NCBI GenBank assembly: GCA_028696455.1
Contig: JAQVGZ010000019.1
Location: 1-34,624, forward strand
Direction: 5' to 3'
Length of the DNA: 34,624 nt
From: Desulfotomaculaceae bacterium
Lineage (GTDB): Bacteria; Bacillota; Desulfotomaculia; Desulfotomaculales; Pelotomaculaceae
Part shown: positions 4,448 through 29,523 of the stretch, one piece after another
How positions within the stretch are numbered: the first letter of the stretch is position 1
Layout: every line of letters starts with the position of its first letter
Notes under the pieces: generated by a model
Database searches by the model: none
The model's input: the letters and a program-made list of their open reading frames with translations, nothing else
What the model was told of the DNA's origin: nothing
Translations under genes and position numbers: made by a program

Positions 4448-5380
4448 TTAAGCAGAAAGCCATTGCTTAACTTTCTCAATCACCTGTTGCCTCTCCTGAA
4501 TCACCTTGTCCGTTAGGGTATAGTTTTCATTCTTTAAGACTTCACGATAGCCGGAAAAAGCTTCGGCGAATTTTCCATTGGCTGACGTATCAAAATTTTT
4601 GTAGCTTTCTTGAAAATCTTTCCTTAAAACCTTGGTGTTATAAGCAAACGCCGGTGTATTGTTTAACCCGGATAAATAGAAATTTACATAGCGCAAATAC
4701 AGCTCCTCAATATCCGCCCGCTTTGCAGAGGCTGAATAGTTCCTAATATAGCTCTCCTGCGCTCCAATTCTTTTTAGTATTTCGTCAGGTGTGATCAGCA
4801 GCGCTGCATCGGCAGCAGGCGGGTTCTTGCTTTCTACAGCCATAATTGTATAGTAATTTTTCAGATCATCACTTAAATATGCATAATACTGTTGATAAAA
4901 TTGGTAATCAATCACTGGAAAATACATGCCTTCCGCACTGCGCGCCAGGTACCCCGTGTCCCTTACCTCTTCCAGCATTCTTTTAATTTCCGGATCTTTT
5001 ATTTGATCAAGCTGCTGCATGCTGAAGGAATAGCCGAACTCTTTATGCAGTCCATTGGGGATGGTTTTTGTCCATTTTTCCTCCTTACCCCCGGCAAACT
5101 GCTGGTCCAGTTCCTCTAAAGACTTTTTTTGCCTGGTCTCATAGCCGGTTACTAATTGGTTTGCACCTTCTTTGGTTACTTTGGAGATGTTGGTGTCGAT
5201 AAAGGCCAGGATTTCTTTTTCTGCCGCGTTTTCTCTCATCAACCTTTCAAATTCAGCAAGCACTGCCTGGTCCTGCAGCTTATCCTCACTTGCCGTACTG
5301 CCGGGCCCGGTACAGCCAAACAGAAAAACCACTACAGACAGGTAAGTCAGGATTAAAAACAAGGGTTGAACTATTCTCAT
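4448..5380 (-). CDS. Lipoprotein of unknown function, paralog A
   Basis: 310 residues. A type II signal peptide is clear: MRIVQPLFLILTYLSVVV, then the lipobox LFGC with Cys at residue 23, so the mature protein should be anchored to the outer face of the membrane. The rest is predominantly helical and charged, with no domain I recognise. A Shine-Dalgarno sequence (AAAGGAG at about 5388-5394) fits the ATG at 5380. It lies 48 bases downstream of the anti-sigma gene on the same strand and is probably the third gene of that operon, which would make it a candidate member of the stress regulon. A paralog at 11765-12697 is about 94 percent identical in protein by my reading, and a 338-base stretch is identical in DNA. 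Confidence 0.85.
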   Translation of the reverse strand: MRIVQPLFLILTYLSVVVFLFGCTGPGSTASEDKLQDQAVLAEFERLMRENAAEKEILAFIDTNISKVTKEGANQLVTGYETRQKKSLEELDQQFAGGKEEKWTKTIPNGLHKEFGYSFSMQQLDQIKDPEIKRMLEEVRDTGYLARSAEGMYFPVIDYQFYQQYYAYLSDDLKNYYTIMAVESKNPPAADAALLITPDEILKRIGAQESYIRNYSASAKRADIEELYLRYVNFYLSGLNNTPAFAYNTKVLRKDFQESYKNFDTSANGKFAEAFSGYREVLKNENYTLTDKVIQERQQVIEKVKQWLSA

Positions 5381-9660: not shown

Positions 9661-11160
9661 TTACCTTTTAATTTTATTAAGCGCATTGATATAGGCCTTG
9701 GCGCTGGCCTCAATGACATCGGTGCTAATACCCTTTCCCACCACCAGCCCGTTATCTCCGGAGCAAAGCTTGACTGTCGCTTCCCCCAGGGCCTCACTGC
9801 CCCGGGTCACCGAGCTCAAAGAATAATCCTCCAGTCGCACCTCCACACCGGTCAGCCGGTCGATGGCTTTAAACACAGCGTCAACCGGGCCGTTGCCGCA
9901 GGCAGCATCCATGTACTCAGTGGCGTCGATATCGACTGACACAGTGGCAGTGGCTGTCGATACACCGGAGGTGGCCACGGCAATATTTTTTAAAGTAATC
10001 CAGTTGCCGTTGGATACGGGCATACCCATCAGGGCATGGAGGTCCTCATCAAAAATTTCCTTTTTCAGATCGGCCAGCTGCAAGAACTGCTGGTAAACAT
10101 TATCCAGCTCTTTTTCGTGCAATTGGTAGCCCAATTCCTGCAGGCGGTGCCTGAGCGCGTGACGGCCGGACCGGGCGCTCAAGTTGATCGTGCTGTGCAG
10201 CCCGCCAATAATTTCAGGCTGAATTATTTCATAGGTCAGCCGGTCTTTCAAAATACCGTCCTGGTGGATGCCGGACGCATGCATAAAGGCCCCCGCCCCG
10301 ACGATGGCTTTATGAACAGGCACCGGCACCCCGGTCACCCGGGATACCAGCCTGCTGGTGGCTGATATTTCCCTGGTGTTCACCCTCACCTCCAACCCGT
10401 ATTGCTTACGCCGGGTGTAGACGGCCATGATCACTTCCTCCAGCGAGGTATTGCCAGCCCGCTCACCAATGCCGTTAATGGCCCCCTCCACCTGCCCCGC
10501 CCCGGCCAGGATGCCCGCCAGTGAATTAGCGGTAGACATGCCCAGGTCGTCATGGCAGTGTACGCTCACCACTACCTTCTCAATCCCGCTAACATTATGC
10601 ATTAAATAGGAGATCAAGTCTTCATATTCAAAGGGAGTGGCATAGCCCACAGTGTCAGGAATATTTACTACCGTGGCGCCGGCCTTAATTGCACTTTCGA
10701 TTACAGCAGCAAGAAAGGCCCGGTCGCTGCGAAAAGCGTCCTCGGCATAAAACTCAACGTCACTGACATATTTTTTGGCGTGCTTTACCGCGGCTACCGC
10801 TACCTCGAGCACCCGCTCCGGCGCAAGCTTAAGCTTTTTCTCCATATGTACCGGTGAGACCCCGATCCCGGTGTGTATTCTTGGATATTCAGCCCCCTGC
10901 AAGGCTTGCGCGCAGCAGTCGATGTCACTCTCCACGGCGCGGGTCAGACCACAAATAGACACACCTTTTACCTCCCGGGCAATCAAGCTTACCGCAGCTG
11001 CGTCTCCCGGCGAAGATGCCGGAAAGCCCGCCTCAATTACATCCACCCCAAGCCTGACCAACTGCCTGGCCACCTTGAGCTTTTCCGCAGCATTCAAGGT
11101 AATCCCTAATGATTGCTCCCCATCCCTTAAGGTGGTATCGAATATATACAGCCTGCGCAT
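9661..11160 (-). CDS. leuA: 2-isopropylmalate synthase-like protein, second copy (T-box controlled)
   Basis: 499 residues, a full-length member of the LeuA/citramalate/homocitrate synthase family. The metal and catalytic motifs are present: [12 protein letters not shown] at residues 8-19, [30 protein letters not shown] and ASGIHQDG. The C-terminal LeuA_dimer region (about 365-499, with [20 protein letters not shown]) is the usual leucine-binding regulatory domain. The reaction is acetyl-CoA plus 2-oxoisovalerate to 2-isopropylmalate. The site usually read G-K-x-SGRHA here reads SARSGRHA, so a shifted substrate (for example citramalate or homocitrate formation) is possible. The ATG at 11160 has GAGGGGG at about 11167-11173. 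Its own promoter and T-box leader lie upstream. The other leuA is at 27988-29523 in the main operon. Confidence 0.85.
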   Translation of the reverse strand: MRRLYIFDTTLRDGEQSLGITLNAAEKLKVARQLVRLGVDVIEAGFPASSPGDAAAVSLIAREVKGVSICGLTRAVESDIDCCAQALQGAEYPRIHTGIGVSPVHMEKKLKLAPERVLEVAVAAVKHAKKYVSDVEFYAEDAFRSDRAFLAAVIESAIKAGATVVNIPDTVGYATPFEYEDLISYLMHNVSGIEKVVVSVHCHDDLGMSTANSLAGILAGAGQVEGAINGIGERAGNTSLEEVIMAVYTRRKQYGLEVRVNTREISATSRLVSRVTGVPVPVHKAIVGAGAFMHASGIHQDGILKDRLTYEIIQPEIIGGLHSTINLSARSGRHALRHRLQELGYQLHEKELDNVYQQFLQLADLKKEIFDEDLHALMGMPVSNGNWITLKNIAVATSGVSTATATVSVDIDATEYMDAACGNGPVDAVFKAIDRLTGVEVRLEDYSLSSVTRGSEALGEATVKLCSGDNGLVVGKGISTDVIEASAKAYINALNKIKR

Positions 11161-11254: not shown

Positions 11255-11529
11255 AATTAAAGACCCTGCGCCTTTTTTGAGACGCAGGGTTCACCTTCGC
11301 GGTACCACTCAAATTAACGGCGACTTTAAGCCGTTCCCTCCAAAGGATACGGGATAAAAATCCGATATCCCCTTCCTTTTAACGGCGGAAGCCCCGTCCG
11401 GTCCTAATCTCACCATTGATTTCAGCCGGCTACTCCAGGGAGAGTTCTGCGCTAAGCCTTCGGCCGCCTTGCACCACCCGGCGGTTCTCTGAACCTGGCT
11501 GTAAACACTTACTATTCCCTTTCATCGTC
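11255..11529 (-). promoter_or_regulatory. T-box riboswitch leader of leuA2 (probably tRNA-Leu specific)
   Basis: On the minus strand the leader starts with GACGATGAAAGGGAATAGTA (11529-11510), typical of T-box stem I. It then has the specifier region GAACTCTCCCTGGAGTAGCC (about 11446-11427). A T-box core TGGTACCGCG at 11307-11298 is followed by a terminator (ACCCTGCG 11290-11283 with CGCAGGGT 11270-11263, then CTTTAATTT). Uncharged tRNA should stabilise the antiterminator and allow leuA2 expression. Leu triplets CTC (11444-11442) and CTG (11438-11436) both lie in the specifier region. I cannot fix which is read without folding stem I. Confidence 0.9.
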
Positions 11530-11545
11530 TTTAAATATAGTATGG

Positions 11546-11764: not shown

Positions 11765-12697
11765 TTAAGCGGAAAGCCATTGCTTCATTTTTTCAATCAC
11801 CTGTTGCCTCTCCTGAACCACCTTATCAGTTAGGATATAATTCTCATTCTTTAATACCTCAAGATAGCCGGAAAAAGCTTCGGCGAATTTCCCACCGGCT
11901 GACGTATCGAAGTTTTTGTAGCTTTCTTGAAAGTCTTTTCTTAAAAACTTGGTGTTATAAGCAAACGCCGGTGTATTGTTTAACCCGGATAAATAGAAGT
12001 TTACATAACGCAAATACAGCTCCTCAATATCTGCCCGCATTACAGAGACTGGATAGTCTTTAATATAGCTCTCCTGCGCTCCAATTCTTTTTAGTATTTC
12101 GTCAGGTGTGATCAGCAGCGCTGCATCGGCAGCAGGCGGGTTCTTGCTTTCTACAGCCATAATTTTATAGTAATTTTTAATATCATCAGTCAAGTATACA
12201 TAATACTGTTGATAAAACTGGTAATCAATCACCGGAAAATATATGCCTTCAGCACTGCGTGCCAGGTACCCCGTGTCCCTTACCTCTTCCAGCATTCTTT
12301 TAATTTCCGGATCTTTTATTTGATCAAGCTGCTGCATGCTGAAGGAATAGCCGAACTCTTTATGCAGTCCATTGGGGATGGTTTTTGTCCATTTTTCCTC
12401 CTTACCCCCGGCAAACTGCTGGTCCAGTTCCTCTAAAGACTTTTTTTGCCTGGTCTCATAGCCGGTTACTAATTGGTTTGCACCTTCTTTGGTTACTTTG
12501 GAGATGTTGGTGTCGATAAAGGCCAGGATTTCTTTTTCTGCCGCGTTTTCTCTCATCAACCTTTCAAATTCAGCAAGCACTGCCTGGTCCTGCAGCTTTT
12601 CCTCACTTGCCGTACTGCCGGGCCCGGTACAGCCAAACAGAAAAACCACTACTGACAGGTAAGTCAGGATTAAAAACAAGGGTTTAACTATTCTCAT
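11765..12697 (-). CDS. Lipoprotein of unknown function, paralog B
   Basis: 310 residues and close to collinear with the product of 4448-5380. It has the same type II signal peptide (MRIVKPLFLILTYLSVVV, then LFGC) and no recognised domain. The ATG at 12697 is chosen because an AAAGGAG sequence lies just upstream and the first paralog starts at the same residue. In-frame codons up to 12787 are not conserved in the other copy. Differences cluster in the C-terminal half (for example IKDYPVSVMRADI against IRNYSASAKRADI). It follows the beta-propeller gene by 135 bases on the same strand. This context differs from copy A, so the two copies may be expressed under different conditions. Confidence 0.85.
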   Translation of the reverse strand: MRIVKPLFLILTYLSVVVFLFGCTGPGSTASEEKLQDQAVLAEFERLMRENAAEKEILAFIDTNISKVTKEGANQLVTGYETRQKKSLEELDQQFAGGKEEKWTKTIPNGLHKEFGYSFSMQQLDQIKDPEIKRMLEEVRDTGYLARSAEGIYFPVIDYQFYQQYYVYLTDDIKNYYKIMAVESKNPPAADAALLITPDEILKRIGAQESYIKDYPVSVMRADIEELYLRYVNFYLSGLNNTPAFAYNTKFLRKDFQESYKNFDTSAGGKFAEAFSGYLEVLKNENYILTDKVVQERQQVIEKMKQWLSA

Positions 12698-12832
12698 GAC
12701 ATGCTCCTTTGTAAAGAGTATGGTTCGCATCATACAGAAACAGGCCACTAGCGTATTTATTGCGAAAGCATCTGCCAAGACCGTCACCAGCAGAGGAACC
12801 TATGCAATTGCTTTCGACGCGGAGCCACTACA

Positions 12833-17730: not shown

Positions 17731-17756
17731 AGAAAAGCCAGGAAGCAACTCCTGGC
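17731..17756 (-). terminator. Intrinsic terminator of the nagB operon
   Basis: A perfect 7-bp stem (GCCAGGA 17737-17743 with TCCTGGC 17750-17756) and 6-base loop are followed on the minus strand by TTTTCTC. It lies 40 bases past the nagB stop and closes the cdaA-to-nagB gene group. Confidence 0.82.
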
Positions 17757-17796: not shown

Positions 17797-18612
17797 TTAT
17801 AATTCGTATCGGCGCTTCATGTTTTCAACATGCCTGTAATGATCAGAATGAACTAATTTAGAAGCCGCCGCTTCATCAAGCACAACCGAGATGTTTCCGC
17901 TGTGCAGTTGTATGGCCGATGCGGTAATCTGCGATGTAAGCGGTCCCTCTAAACATTTGGCAACGACATCAGCTTTCTTGGAGCCGTTTACAATCATTAA
18001 AATATTCTTTGCATCCAGTATGGTTCCAATACCCATTGTAATGGCAAAATGCGGCATCTGGTTGCGTTCGATATTAGCTTTTTTGTAGAAAGCTTCATAG
18101 TTATCATCCAGGGTCTGTTCTGTCAATGCCACTACTCTTGTTCTTGATCCAAGTGATGAGCCAGGTTCGTTGAAGCCCCAATGCCCATCGCCGCCAAGTC
18201 CCAAAAGCTGCAAATCAATGCCTCCGGCCTTCTTGATTTCTTTTTCATACCATATACAAAACTCTTTCGGTTCTTTTGTTTGACCATCGGGTATTTGGAT
18301 GTTTTCCCTTTTGATATTGATATGCTTGAATAGTTCCTCGTGCATAAACCTGGCATAGCTTTGATCCAAATGATAGGGCTTCCCCAAATCAATTCCGACA
18401 CCAAGATATTCATCAAGGTTAAATGTTTTGACCTGCGAAAAATCAAGGCCCTCTTCCCTGTGCATTCTAACCAGCTCCTGATAAGTACCAATGGGGGTGG
18501 CTCCTGTTGCCAGTCCGAGCACACAGTCCGGCTTGGATTTAACATAACCCGCAATAATTTCTGCGGCGTATTTGCTCATTTGTTCATAATTTTCCCTGAT
18601 GATAATATCCAT
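17797..18612 (-). CDS. nagB: Glucosamine-6-phosphate deaminase/isomerase family, possibly working as GlcN6P synthase
   Basis: 271 residues, normal NagB length. Conserved parts are the sugar-phosphate loop LGLATGATPIGTY (residues 32-44), NLDEYLG (Asp67, Glu68), and GGDGHWGFNEPGSS with Asp142, His144 and Glu149, matching the catalytic Asp, His and Glu of E. coli NagB. A Trp follows the catalytic His where Ile is usual. NagB is known to interconvert GlcN6P + H2O and Fru6P + NH3 and is normally catabolic. Here no nagA, nagE or GntR regulator is near. Instead it follows cdaA, cdaR, glmM, a glmS ribozyme and an acetyltransferase-like gene, the position where glmS usually stands. I infer an anabolic, aminating role, but this is not shown by sequence. 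The ATG at 18612 has AGGGGGAA upstream. The 119-base gap to the preceding gene holds nothing else clear. Confidence 0.9.
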   Translation of the reverse strand: MDIIIRENYEQMSKYAAEIIAGYVKSKPDCVLGLATGATPIGTYQELVRMHREEGLDFSQVKTFNLDEYLGVGIDLGKPYHLDQSYARFMHEELFKHINIKRENIQIPDGQTKEPKEFCIWYEKEIKKAGGIDLQLLGLGGDGHWGFNEPGSSLGSRTRVVALTEQTLDDNYEAFYKKANIERNQMPHFAITMGIGTILDAKNILMIVNGSKKADVVAKCLEGPLTSQITASAIQLHSGNISVVLDEAAASKLVHSDHYRHVENMKRRYEL

Positions 18613-18731
18613 GTTTTATTCCCCCTGTTTTTCTTAAAAATTTTCATCTTCATCTTATAGATCTTTTCGAGCTTTTTCTTCTTCGCGGCAACAGCTTTCT
18701 GGCTGATCGCTGGTTTGCAGGTTTATAGATA

Positions 18732-19406
18732 TCATTTGCGATCTTTCCTGACGATCTCGCCGCCTTGCTTGAATATGCTGTCCTCAGGAACATAGCCACG
18801 CACCAACGACAGCGGGTAGATCATGCTGTTTCTGCCTATAATGGTGCCTGGGTTGAGCACTGAGTTGCAACCCACCTCGACATGATCCCCGAGCATCGCA
18901 CCCACCTTCTTCATACCAGTCTTTGCTGTCTCGTTGTTGATGCGCACTGTCACCGGACTCTTATCTGACTTCACATTTGAAGTAATGGAACCGGCACCCA
19001 TGTGGGCCTTGAAGCCAAGTATGGAGTCGCCCACATAATTGTAATGCGGCACCTGCACACTGTTAAACAAGATAACATTCTTCAGTTCAGTGGAATTTCC
19101 GACAACAGCATGCTCACCAATCACAGCTGAACCGCGAATAAAGGCGCAGTGGCGAATTTCGGCATACTGGCCGACGATGCAAGGCCCATGAATATACGCC
19201 GTTGGGGCAACATTAGCTGTACGGGCTATCCAGATATCATCTGCAGGATGATCGAAATCAATTCGTGACAAGGTTTCTCCCAATTCAAGAATAAAGGATT
19301 TGATTTTAGGTATAATTTCCCAAGGATACTCGCATCCGGCAAAAATATCCTTTGCTATGGTTTCCCTAAAGTCGAACAAGTCTGATATTTTTATACCGCT
19401 GTTCAT
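18732..19406 (-). CDS. Left-handed beta-helix protein resembling the GlmU acetyltransferase domain
   Basis: 224 residues. A short helical N terminus (about 1-55) precedes a hexapeptide-repeat beta-helix (about 58-200) with turns such as VAPTAYIHGPCIVGQYAEIR and VIGEHAVVGNSTELKNVILF. The segment VPHYNYVGDSILGFKAHMGA at about 119-138 matches the GlmU acetyltransferase site HLSYLGDAEIG...IGAGTIT, with His121 at the place of the catalytic His. No uridylyltransferase domain (no N-terminal Rossmann fold with LAAGxGTRM) is present, though such proteins are often labelled UDP-GlcNAc pyrophosphorylase. The likely reaction is acetyl-CoA plus GlcN1P to GlcNAc1P, the step after GlmM. The ATG at 19406 has GAAGGGAG upstream. 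It is the first gene after the glmS ribozyme, about 344 bases away, and precedes nagB. Confidence 0.72.
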   Translation of the reverse strand: MNSGIKISDLFDFRETIAKDIFAGCEYPWEIIPKIKSFILELGETLSRIDFDHPADDIWIARTANVAPTAYIHGPCIVGQYAEIRHCAFIRGSAVIGEHAVVGNSTELKNVILFNSVQVPHYNYVGDSILGFKAHMGAGSITSNVKSDKSPVTVRINNETAKTGMKKVGAMLGDHVEVGCNSVLNPGTIIGRNSMIYPLSLVRGYVPEDSIFKQGGEIVRKDRK

Positions 19407-19497
19407 TTTCCAAACTCCCTTCTACACGTATCCCAATTTATGACAAGTTGATTCTTCAAGTATTAACTAACCTTTATACCCCTGCGGAGCACAATCT

Positions 19498-19526
19498 ATA
19501 ATGAAAACGATTCATTTTCTTATCAA
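19498..19526 (-). promoter_or_regulatory. Weak candidate promoter inside the ribozyme-to-gene gap
   Basis: TTGATA (19526-19521), 17 bases and CATTAT (19503-19498) lie about 90 bases before the acetyltransferase-like gene. If used, it would give nagB an expression path that bypasses the ribozyme. The -10 match is poor, so this is tentative. Confidence 0.25.
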
Positions 19527-19749
19527 AACGATCACCGTTAAGACGATGTTGCTTGATAAACCAGCTGATTATCCACTCAAGCGCTAATTTTATACCAGCC
19601 CGTTTGGGTGCGTTGGAGAAATTATTCCATCAATGCTTAAAGAAACAGAAATGCCGGACATATGAAAGCCACGGCACTCAAAAAGCAATTTATGGGATTT
19701 CTAATAAAGGCAATACTAATCCTCTATGTGCTTTACCGCTATCGGCCGC

Positions 19750-19958
19750 TGGCACTTTTGTCCCACCGGTTACCCAGTGGTTTTGTAATGCCGCTAACGG
19801 TCCGGCCGTACCGGGGGGAACCCGCCGAAAATTCGATTAACCCCCTCCTCGTCAACCCTGATAACTTACAAGTGAACAATTAACCAACTCTAAATTTCAA
19901 GTATCTTCTTCTAATTGAGCTATAAACCAGTCATTATTATAAGCAGGGTTCTGGCGCT
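19750..19958 (-). ncRNA. glmS ribozyme (GlcN6P-activated self-cleaving riboswitch)
   Basis: Read on the minus strand, the cleavage site is A19958/G19957 in CAAGCGCCAGAACCCTG. P2 is ACCCTG (19949-19944) with CAGGGT (19860-19855), closing an 83-base insert whose ends also pair (CTTATAA with TTGTAAG). The core continues TTGACGAGG (19855-19847), GGGGGTTAATCGA, TTCGGCGGG (19829-19821), and P3 is GGGGG with CCCCC (19818-19813). P4 is CGGT...ACCG followed by TTAG. P4a is GGCATT (19792-19787) with AGTGCC (19756-19751), and P4b is CCACTGG-GTAA-CCGGTGG. Every element follows the Thermoanaerobacter glmS ribozyme layout. In that family GlcN6P acts as coenzyme for cleavage and the cut mRNA is degraded. 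The downstream genes here are an acetyltransferase-like gene and nagB, not glmS. Confidence 0.93.
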
Positions 19959-20103
19959 TGATTATTTAATTTTCTCATATCTTTAAAAACTATGGTTTAG
20001 AAGTCATTATCACCCCGCTTCAAAACTGATGTCTTTGCTAAGATTCAAACGATAATATATCTTTGCCAGAAATATATAACAGATTAATCTACTATCATAA
20101 AGA

Positions 20104-21438
20104 CTATTTATTTTTTTCTATTACATCAACCAACTTACCAACTATTTCCTGTAGTTGATCCATATTTCTTCCTTCGGCCATTACTCGCACCAGAGACTCA
20201 GTACCGGATGGGCGTACCAGAATACGTCCTTTTCCACCCAACTTAATTTCCAATTCCTTAATGGCTTCAGCTAAAACAGGGCTACACATGACCTGAGACT
20301 TATCAACAACTGGTACATTTACCAGCAACTGCGGAAACCTCTCCATCTGCGCTGCCAATTGCTCCAGTGGGAGGCCACTCTCTTTCATCACACTTAGAAG
20401 CTGTAAGGCTGTTAAAATGCCGTCACCGGTAGTATTATGATCTAGTGAAATGATATGACCGGATTGTTCACCCCCAAAGCGGGCGCCGGTACGCAATAGT
20501 TCCTCCAAAACATAGCGGTCGCCAACTTTTGTCTCTATTACCTGAATGCCAGAATCTTGAAGTGCCAGGTGCAGCCCAAGGTTACTCATCACAGTAACGA
20601 CAACAGTTTTTTTCGCCAGCAAACCCTTCTTCATCAGGTGGCGGGCACAAATTACCATGATCTGGTCGCCGTCAACCAGCCTGCCGCCAGCATCTACCGC
20701 CAGTACCCGGTCGGCGTCGCCGTCGTGGGCTAGACCCAAATCAGCTTTTGTCGAAATAACAGCTTTCATTAAAGCTTCCGGGTGGGTGGAACCACACCGG
20801 TCGTTGATGTTAATTCCATCCGGCTGTGCGTTGATTGTGACCACTTCAGCGCCCAATTCGCTAAAAATTCGCGGGGCTACTTGATAGGCTGCACCATTTG
20901 CACAATCAACTACAATCTTCAGACCGCTAAGGTCCATTTTAAAAACGCTGCTGGCAAATTCAACATAACGGTCGGCGGCATCATGCATTCGTTGCAAACG
21001 TCCGATGCCTCCACCTTCAGGGTAAGGGACACCAACGCACTCATTTATAACCAGTGCCTCAATATTCGCCTCAATTTCGTCGGAAAGCTTGTAGCCACTG
21101 GAACTAAAGAACTTGATGCCGTTATCATCAACCGGGTTGTGAGAAGCAGATATAACTACCCCTGCCGCTGCCTTTAGCTCACGCGTAAGATACGCGATAG
21201 CCGGCGTAGGCATTACCCCTAGAGTGACTGCATCAACACCTGCGGAACAAATTCCTGCTACCAGTGCGGCTTCCAGCATATCCCCCGAAATACGGGTGTC
21301 CTTCCCAATAACCATGCGGTTGCTGTTACCTCCGGCAAGGATATAAGCTCCCGCCCGGCCCAGCTTAAAAGCCATTTCCGGGGTTAGATCACGATTAGCT
21401 ATACCTCTTACCCCGTCTGTGCCAAACATTACCCCAAT
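20104..21438 (-). CDS. glmM: Phosphoglucosamine mutase
   Basis: 444 residues if translation begins at ATT (21438-21436), 441 from the ATG at 21429. It converts GlcN6P to GlcN1P for UDP-GlcNAc and peptidoglycan. The motifs are [16 protein letters not shown] at the N terminus, the phosphoserine loop [15 protein letters not shown] (Ser99 in the longer form), the metal loop DGDADR, and the C-terminal [15 protein letters not shown]. The ATG has only two bases between GGGG and itself. The ATT has AAAGGGG 8 bases upstream and gives [12 protein letters not shown], the usual family N terminus ([12 protein letters not shown]). I therefore favour ATT, a rare start. It lies in the common cdaA-cdaR-glmM order. 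The ribozyme begins 145 bases after its stop without a clear terminator, so read-through is possible. Confidence 0.93.
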
Positions 21439-27987: not shown

Positions 27988-29523
27988 TTATTTCGCTATA
28001 TCTTCAACCAGCCGGTTCTCCCAAACCAGTTTATTTACAGCACTGACATAGGCTTTGGCACTGGCGTCAAGAATATCCGTACTGATTCCGCGGCCCATGT
28101 AAGTTTTCCTTCCGTCTATAGTTATCCGCAGGGTTACATCGCCCAAAGCATCTTTTCCAGCTGTAACTGCGTTTATCCCCCAGGTAGCTAAAGTGCAATT
28201 TAGCCCGGTGATTTTATCTATCGCCCTGCAAATTGCGTCTACGGGGCCATTACCGCAGGCAGCCTCCTCTATCAACTGCCCATTCCGCTTCAAGCCTATA
28301 GTTGCTGTTGGCACAATTGTAGTACCACTAGAAATATGCAGGTATTCAAGCGCATAAGTATGAGGTATACGGCGGATTTCCTCATCGATTATGACCTCTA
28401 AGTCATCATCAGTTATTTCTTTTTTCTTGTCTGCCAACTTTTTAAAAACAATAAAAGCACTGTTTAACTCATCTGCTGAAAGGTTATAGCCCAGTCCCTC
28501 TAAACGCTGGCGGAAGGCGTGACGTCCTGATAGCTTCCCAAGGACCAAATTGCTCTTGCTTATCCCAACCATGGCCGGGTTCATAATCTCATAGGTGGTG
28601 CGCTCCTTAATGATCCCGTCCTGGTGAATGCCTGACTCGTGGGCAAAGGCATTTTTACCCACTACTGCTTTATTGGCCTGCACTTTCATACCGGTGAGAG
28701 AGCTTACCAGCCTGCTAGAACGATAAATCTCCTCAGTATTGACGTTGGTAAAATAGTCGAAGTAGTCCTTCCGGGTTCGGAGGGTCATCACCACTTCCTC
28801 CAGGGCCGCATTGCCGGCCCGTTCCCCGATCCCGTTGATAGTGCCTTCCACCTGCCGGGCGCCATTTATCACCGCTGCAAGGGAGTTGGCAACAGCCAGG
28901 CCAAGATCATTATGGCAGTGTATGCTAACGATTACTTTTTCTATTCCTGCCACCTTTGAGCATATGGTCTGAATAAACCTGCCCCATTCGTCCGGAACAG
29001 CGTAACCCACGGTATCGGGAATGTTCACGACCGTGGCGCCAGCCGCAATCGCTGCCTCTAAAACCTGACATAAAAATTCCAAGTCAGAGCGGGAGGCGTC
29101 CATAGCAGAAAATTCCACGTCAGCAGTATAGGATTTGGCACGCTTAACAGCAGCCACGGCTGCCTCGAGCACCTGCTCCCTGGTAAGCCGTAACTGGTGC
29201 TTTAAATGAATATCCGAAGTAGAAATAAAAGTGTGAATACGCGCCTGATCTGAAAAGCGCACCGCCTCCCAGGCCCGGTCAATATCCTCAAAATTGGTTC
29301 TGGCCAACCCAGCCACGGTTACTCCCTTGACCTCCCGGGCTATCGCACTAACTGCTTCAAAATCACCAGGTGAAGCAATAGGAAATCCAGCCTCAATGAT
29401 GTCTACTTTTAGTTTGGCCAGTTGTCGGGCAATCTGAATCTTTTCACTCACGTTCAGGCTGGCGCCTGGTGACTGCTCTCCATCTCTTAAAGTAGTATCA
29501 AAAAGATAGACTCGCTGGCTCAT
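27988..29523 (-). CDS. leuA: 2-isopropylmalate synthase (operon copy)
   Basis: 511 residues. The canonical LeuA set is present: [17 protein letters not shown] at residues 8-24, [43 protein letters not shown] and [15 protein letters not shown]. The C-terminal leucine-binding domain (about 385-500) contains [20 protein letters not shown]. It makes 2-isopropylmalate, the first leucine-specific step. Both catalytic and regulatory parts look intact. The ATG at 29523 has GGAGG 8 bases upstream, 13 bases after the ilvB1 stop. It differs from leuA2 (9661-11160) at the SGRHA loop, where this copy has the usual GKLSGRHA. Confidence 0.95.

Follow-up and report, generated by a model that had tools for sequence, protein, structure and literature searches.

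glmS ribozymes are treated as specific to glmS, and hence as drug targets. In the survey of McCown et al. (2011), all but two of the glmS ribozymes reportedly precede glmS, and no paper on a ribozyme-led nagB was found in the literature searched. Akkermansia muciniphila, which lacks GlmS, has a catabolic NagB that is unable to make GlcN6P at physiological conditions, and needs GlcNAc (PMC5902328); it stands as a warning precedent against an anabolic reading of NagB.

The locus described here lies on the minus strand of a 34,624-nt stretch of DNA (the window), taken from a 167-contig assembly (G000) of 96% completeness, and carries a glmS ribozyme that is followed by an acetyltransferase gene and nagB (Table 1). 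The sequence establishes the ribozyme, the genes around it and the replacement of glmS at its own site. The best-supported function, and in our judgement the likely one, is feedback control by the ribozyme of a NagB that acts as ammonia-dependent GlcN6P synthase; for this function the direction of NagB, the role of the acetyltransferase, co-transcription and cleavage are inferred, and there are no activity data. The elements are known individually; their combination is new and recurrent.

Table 1. Features of the ribozyme-acetyltransferase-nagB locus in the window.
Feature	Position	Strand	Basis
glmM, phosphoglucosamine mutase, upstream gene	20104..21429	(-)	TIGR01455, 616.9 bits (cut-off 447.55)
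Promoter-like AAGACA-18-GATAAT, 5' of ribozyme, weak (9/12)	20006..20035	(-)	consensus scan, not above chance
glmS ribozyme, complete, long P1 insertion	19740..19969	(-)	RF00234 covariance-model match
Leader stretch, orthologous to the one before glmS in sister species G091 (87.9% identical)	19616..19862	(-)	DNA comparison
Invariant ribozyme core GACGAGG	19847..19853	(-)	sequence and alignment with relatives
Terminator-like hairpin 3' of ribozyme, followed by CTGTTTCTT	19649..19679	(-)	fold, -14.1 kcal/mol
Segment without traced origin, from old glmS leader to acetyltransferase gene	19425..19615	(-)	no match among fetched loci
Promoter-like TTGATA-17-CATTAT within that segment, weak	19526-19498	(-)	consensus scan
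Acetyltransferase, GlmU C-terminal type, left-handed beta-helix, 224 aa	18732..19406	(-)	profile search, alignment
nagB, DGHW subfamily	17797..18612	(-)	TIGR00502, 274.1 bits (cut-off 236.9)
Strong intrinsic terminator after nagB, end of proposed transcription unit	17737..17756	(-)	8-bp stem, T-rich tail

An earlier note, made from the sequence alone, had claimed a complete minus-strand glmS ribozyme with cleavage at 19958/19957, followed by a GlmU-like acetyltransferase and a NagB-type deaminase in the absence of glmS, and had asked for a search with RF00234. All of these claims held, the absence of glmS with the scope of a whole-genome TIGR01135 search of a 96%-complete assembly and the identity of the two genes by profile searches. 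The RF00234 match (99.4 bits, E 2.7e-22, model positions 1-167 of 167) is well above the Rfam gathering score of 37, and it is the sole glmS ribozyme of the genome in an RF00234 search. The cleavage site (A19958/G19957), P1 (AACCCTG/CAGGGTT) and the elements P3 to P4b are legible in the sequence; the cleavage site, the core motifs AGCGCC, GACGAGG and TTCGGCGG, and the P4 pairings are also supported by alignment with relatives. Only the usual, non-definitional placement in a glmS leader is unmet, for acetyltransferase gene and nagB lie downstream. GlcN6P-dependent self-cleavage of this RNA is assumed, and there are no cleavage data.

No terminator was found by a scan of the interval between glmM and the ribozyme, and the genes on either side of the ribozyme-acetyltransferase junction are co-directional and have proper ribosome-binding sites. 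Co-transcription of the acetyltransferase gene and nagB with the ribozyme is inferred; the path of transcription is left open by the hairpin and by the weak promoter-like site 3' of the ribozyme. A strong promoter 3' of the ribozyme was considered and rejected, as the matches reach only 9/12 and are not clearly above shuffled expectation. The hairpin with its T-rich tail (19679-19640, minus strand) is seen at the same position in 16 members of the family, the window included, and such a conserved hairpin between a glmS ribozyme and the next gene suggests a second, transcriptional layer of control. Elsewhere in the window, two near-identical lipoprotein-like genes (4448-5380 and 11765-12787, minus strand), 7 kb apart, represent a recent duplication, and a T-box leader (11275-11534, minus strand; 107.4 bits) precedes a 2-isopropylmalate/homocitrate synthase-like gene (9661-11160) that is a second copy, paralogous to 27988-29523.

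The ribozyme is found in 98 of 113 genomes of the window's order, and in 97 of these 98 it is followed by glmS, as judged from ribozyme coordinates against GlmS matches; the window alone departs from this. The order glmM-ribozyme-glmS is therefore ancestral and the arrangement in the window derived. Two of the 97 have an isomerase-only GlmS, one in the window's genus (G092) and one in its family (G088). Three species of the window's genus carry three different enzymes behind an orthologous ribozyme: full GlmS (G091), isomerase-only GlmS (G092), and acetyltransferase-NagB (the window).

The genes that follow the leader are of other affinity. From position 19424, 18 nt before its start codon, the acetyltransferase gene matches locus L123 of a Syntrophomonadaceae MAG, its nearest relative, at 85% identity, and we read the gene as foreign; from position 18644, 32 nt before its start codon, nagB is homologous to L123 and to genus g9. 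The two genes point away from each other in L123 and G107, about 250 bp apart; in the window both follow the ribozyme in the same direction, and the donor-type divergent promoter region has largely been lost. An orthologous leader joined to re-oriented, L123-like genes implies that a transferred pair took over the site of glmS.

No GlmS above the TIGR01135 cut-off and no isolated GlmS isomerase was found in the window's genome, for which the sole TIGR01135 match is partial (131.8 bits, residues 1-249) and lies in a frame of 490 aa that we take to be PurF. The same search detected GlmS above the cut-off in 14/14 control genomes, and it does detect the isomerase-only GlmS of the sister species. 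The usual glmS site is fully assembled in the window and holds the new genes. A glmS remnant between ribozyme and acetyltransferase gene was also sought and rejected, as a tblastn search of the window with GlmS returned noise only and the leader homology ends at 19616; likewise, neither a second ribozyme nor a glmS elsewhere was found in searches of the genome. GlmU is intact (584 bits), and the cell therefore needs GlcN6P. Four other genomes of 92-97% completeness (G075, G076 and G078, of one genus, and G031) have no GlmS, no glmS ribozyme and no close NagB.

The NagB of the window belongs to a subfamily, defined here by BLAST identities and motifs, that is sharply separate in the phylum sample (members at least 429 bits; the next group, canonical NagB, at most 252 bits). 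It has DGHW where canonical NagB has NGHI or DGHI, and a six-residue insertion, KPYxxD, ahead of QSYARFM; the active-site motifs DEY, DGH and NEP are conserved in the alignment. Among the best 80 loci from a GTDB scan for genomes with this NagB, the gene lies at most 2.6 kb from glmM in 15, several of which are glmU/acetyltransferase-glmM-nagB clusters; one glmM-linked case (L162, CP070770) is on a single-contig chromosome record without GlmS. Within the window's family, the subfamily co-occurs with absence of GlmS (6/9 vs 1/16; Fisher p 0.003); one genus accounts for five of the six. nagA does not exceed its cut-off in most GlmS-less hosts of this NagB (e.g. genus g9, with five genomes without glmS, and G113, G114, G118, G122 and G124). 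The linkage to glmM, the absence of nagA from most GlmS-less hosts and the co-occurrence with GlmS loss together favour a biosynthetic role of this NagB.

Two stronger inferences were rejected. That the window's own NagB is anabolic cannot be proved from a lack of nagA, as nagA is present in the window's genome (313 bits), on another contig (C111); the window's nagB does lack the nagA linkage expected of a catabolic NagB, and nagA is also found in sister species without nagB and hence is not tied to nagB. Nor is the subfamily a strict marker of GlmS loss: many genomes carry both it and GlmS, so that this NagB cannot everywhere be a mere stand-in for GlmS. In several genomes the subfamily NagB has a convergent neighbour, an uncharacterised protein about 300 aa long (L113, 10556-11464; L107, 7109-8020; L108, 9317-10216).

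A survey of related genomes for the ribozyme-nagB order, which the earlier note had also proposed, found it again, in two loci (L151 and L179) of Syntrophomonadales, an order other than the window's. In both, glmM, ribozyme (105.9 and 88.0 bits) and nagB follow one another with nothing between, and both genomes lack GlmS; the two are MAGs of differing record series and isolate names. Across the 48 ribozyme-bearing genomes of Syntrophomonadales, the ribozyme precedes a full-type GlmS in 36, an isomerase-only GlmS in seven, nagB in two and a contig end in three; no further ribozyme-nagB case was found among 17 additional loci with a close NagB in the phylum sample. The claim that every known glmS ribozyme precedes glmS was thus nearly right for the two orders, the exceptions being two other nagB genes and nine glutaminase-less GlmS genes (L034, L037, L206, L217, L229, L231, L235, L242 and L246). 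In a tree of the isomerase domain, the isomerase-only forms branch at two or more distinct points, one per order. These proteins, of about 370 aa, are encoded directly behind the glmS ribozyme, and those of L034 (3253-4365) and L037 (3594-4718) each possess a start codon and Shine-Dalgarno sequence of their own. In a further genome (G118) with NagB and acetyltransferase and without GlmS, a glmS ribozyme follows glmM and the contig (C134; locus L232) stops 96 nt later.

In its core, the ribozyme has 94% identity with those of G091 and G092, compared with 50-65% at four-fold sites of glmM, and its overall score is intermediate to the scores in the two sister species of the genus with glmS (92.4 and 105.9 bits). 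The omega values of NagB (0.07) and of the acetyltransferase (0.15) indicate purifying selection on both. Together these values speak against a relic; a very recent loss of function cannot be excluded.

In the proposed mechanism, the transferred acetyltransferase-nagB pair would have taken the place of glmS behind the ribozyme of glmS itself, and NagB would run in the synthetic direction, from fructose-6-phosphate and NH4+ to GlcN6P, which GlmM, GlmU and the extra acetyltransferase would draw onward to UDP-GlcNAc; from its sequence, this acetyltransferase is likely a GlcN1P N-acetyltransferase. Surplus GlcN6P would bind the ribozyme as cofactor; with cleavage of the leader at 19958/19957 and degradation of the mRNA 3' of it, GlcN6P synthesis would be switched off, as with glmS. 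The NagB reaction is reversible, with a Keq of about 0.2 M (PMC11593775), and Candidatus Syntrophopropionicum ammoniitolerans, which we take to be the genus-g9 genome G102 with NagB and without GlmS, has been cultivated at 0.3 M NH4Cl (PMC11201294); at these values GlcN6P would outweigh F6P at equilibrium (ratio above 1). The suggestion of the earlier note that the circuit is rewired, and is logical if NagB makes GlcN6P, is supported by the comparative data, because the leader is orthologous, the arrangement is found in a second GlmS-less lineage, NagB is glmM-linked and nagA is mostly missing from GlmS-less hosts; the direction of NagB and control by the ribozyme remain inferred.

The rival explanation that survives best, though it is an unlikely one, is that the ribozyme is a relic: glmS was lost, amino sugars are salvaged or recycled, and a catabolic NagB with a promoter of its own sits behind a leftover leader. 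The presence of nagA in G000 makes GlcNAc6P salvage with a catabolic NagB possible, and the promoter-like site and the terminator-like hairpin 3' of the ribozyme as well as the Akkermansia precedent are in favour of it. However, the ribozyme shows no decay relative to those before intact glmS in the genus, either in score or in its core; the ribozyme-nagB order arose a second time; the divergent promoter region of the donors is mostly gone, with homology beginning only shortly before the two start codons; and nagA is missing from most other GlmS-less hosts and present in sister species without nagB. It is very unlikely that glmS is still there, in an assembly gap or relocated, with the acetyltransferase gene and nagB merely inserted beside the ribozyme; the number of contigs and the completeness of the assembly leave room for this, but the site that holds glmS in the 97 other ribozyme-bearing genomes is fully assembled here without it, and G113 and G114, which share the ribozyme-nagB arrangement, and the five genus-g9 genomes lack glmS as well. 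An assembly chimera is less likely still: the ribozyme-acetyltransferase junction is known from one draft assembly only, but the flanking genes share one direction, have proper ribosome-binding sites and are closed off by a terminator, and the ribozyme precedes nagB in two further MAGs.

We therefore retain ribozyme control of a GlcN6P-synthesizing NagB as the preferred reading. A bolder one, towards which we lean by a narrow margin, is that ammonia-rich anaerobes have repeatedly swapped glutamine-dependent for ammonia-dependent GlcN6P synthesis, by way of either DGHW NagB (here and in Syntrophomonadales) or glutaminase-less GlmS (at least two origins), with the glmS ribozyme retained each time and acting as a portable feedback sensor for GlcN6P, one that tracks the reaction rather than the gene. 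A ribozyme kept before nagB makes the textbook direction of NagB testable, as the regulation predicts an anabolic enzyme, and the locus offers a natural experiment in the re-use of an RNA sensor whose own gene has been replaced. The signature of DGHW, KPYxxD insertion and glmM linkage could be used to predict which syntrophic bacteria of high-ammonia digesters make amino sugars in an ammonia-dependent way.

Compared with the glmS-ribozyme system of Firmicutes, the locus is alike in the RNA, whose RF00234 score is far above the cut-off, in its place after glmM and in the leader; it differs in the downstream genes, such that GlcN6P would govern an ammonia-using instead of a glutamine-using enzyme. 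NagB shares the fold family of known glucosamine-6-phosphate deaminases (TIGR00502; best PDB match B. subtilis NagB, 2bkv/2bkx), and its subfamily departs from canonical NagB in DGHW, in the KPYxxD insertion and in its position beside glmM rather than with nagA. The acetyltransferase aligns over its length with the left-handed beta-helix of archaeal-type GlmU (TIGR03992; Sulfolobus ST0452-type entries 5z09 and 2ggo) and keeps the catalytic His of GlmU (PH-x-x-YVGD; motif H-x-x-Y-[LV]-GD) in an alignment with Haemophilus GlmU (2v0h), but it is without the nucleotidyltransferase half of GlmU/Arch_GlmU and scores 151.8 bits, under the curated cut-off of 292.1. With the isomerase-only GlmS of sister genera, the window's system shares the ribozyme-led site, the missing glutaminase and, presumably, the dependence on ammonia; those enzymes retain the isomerase half of GlmS, whereas the window uses NagB instead.
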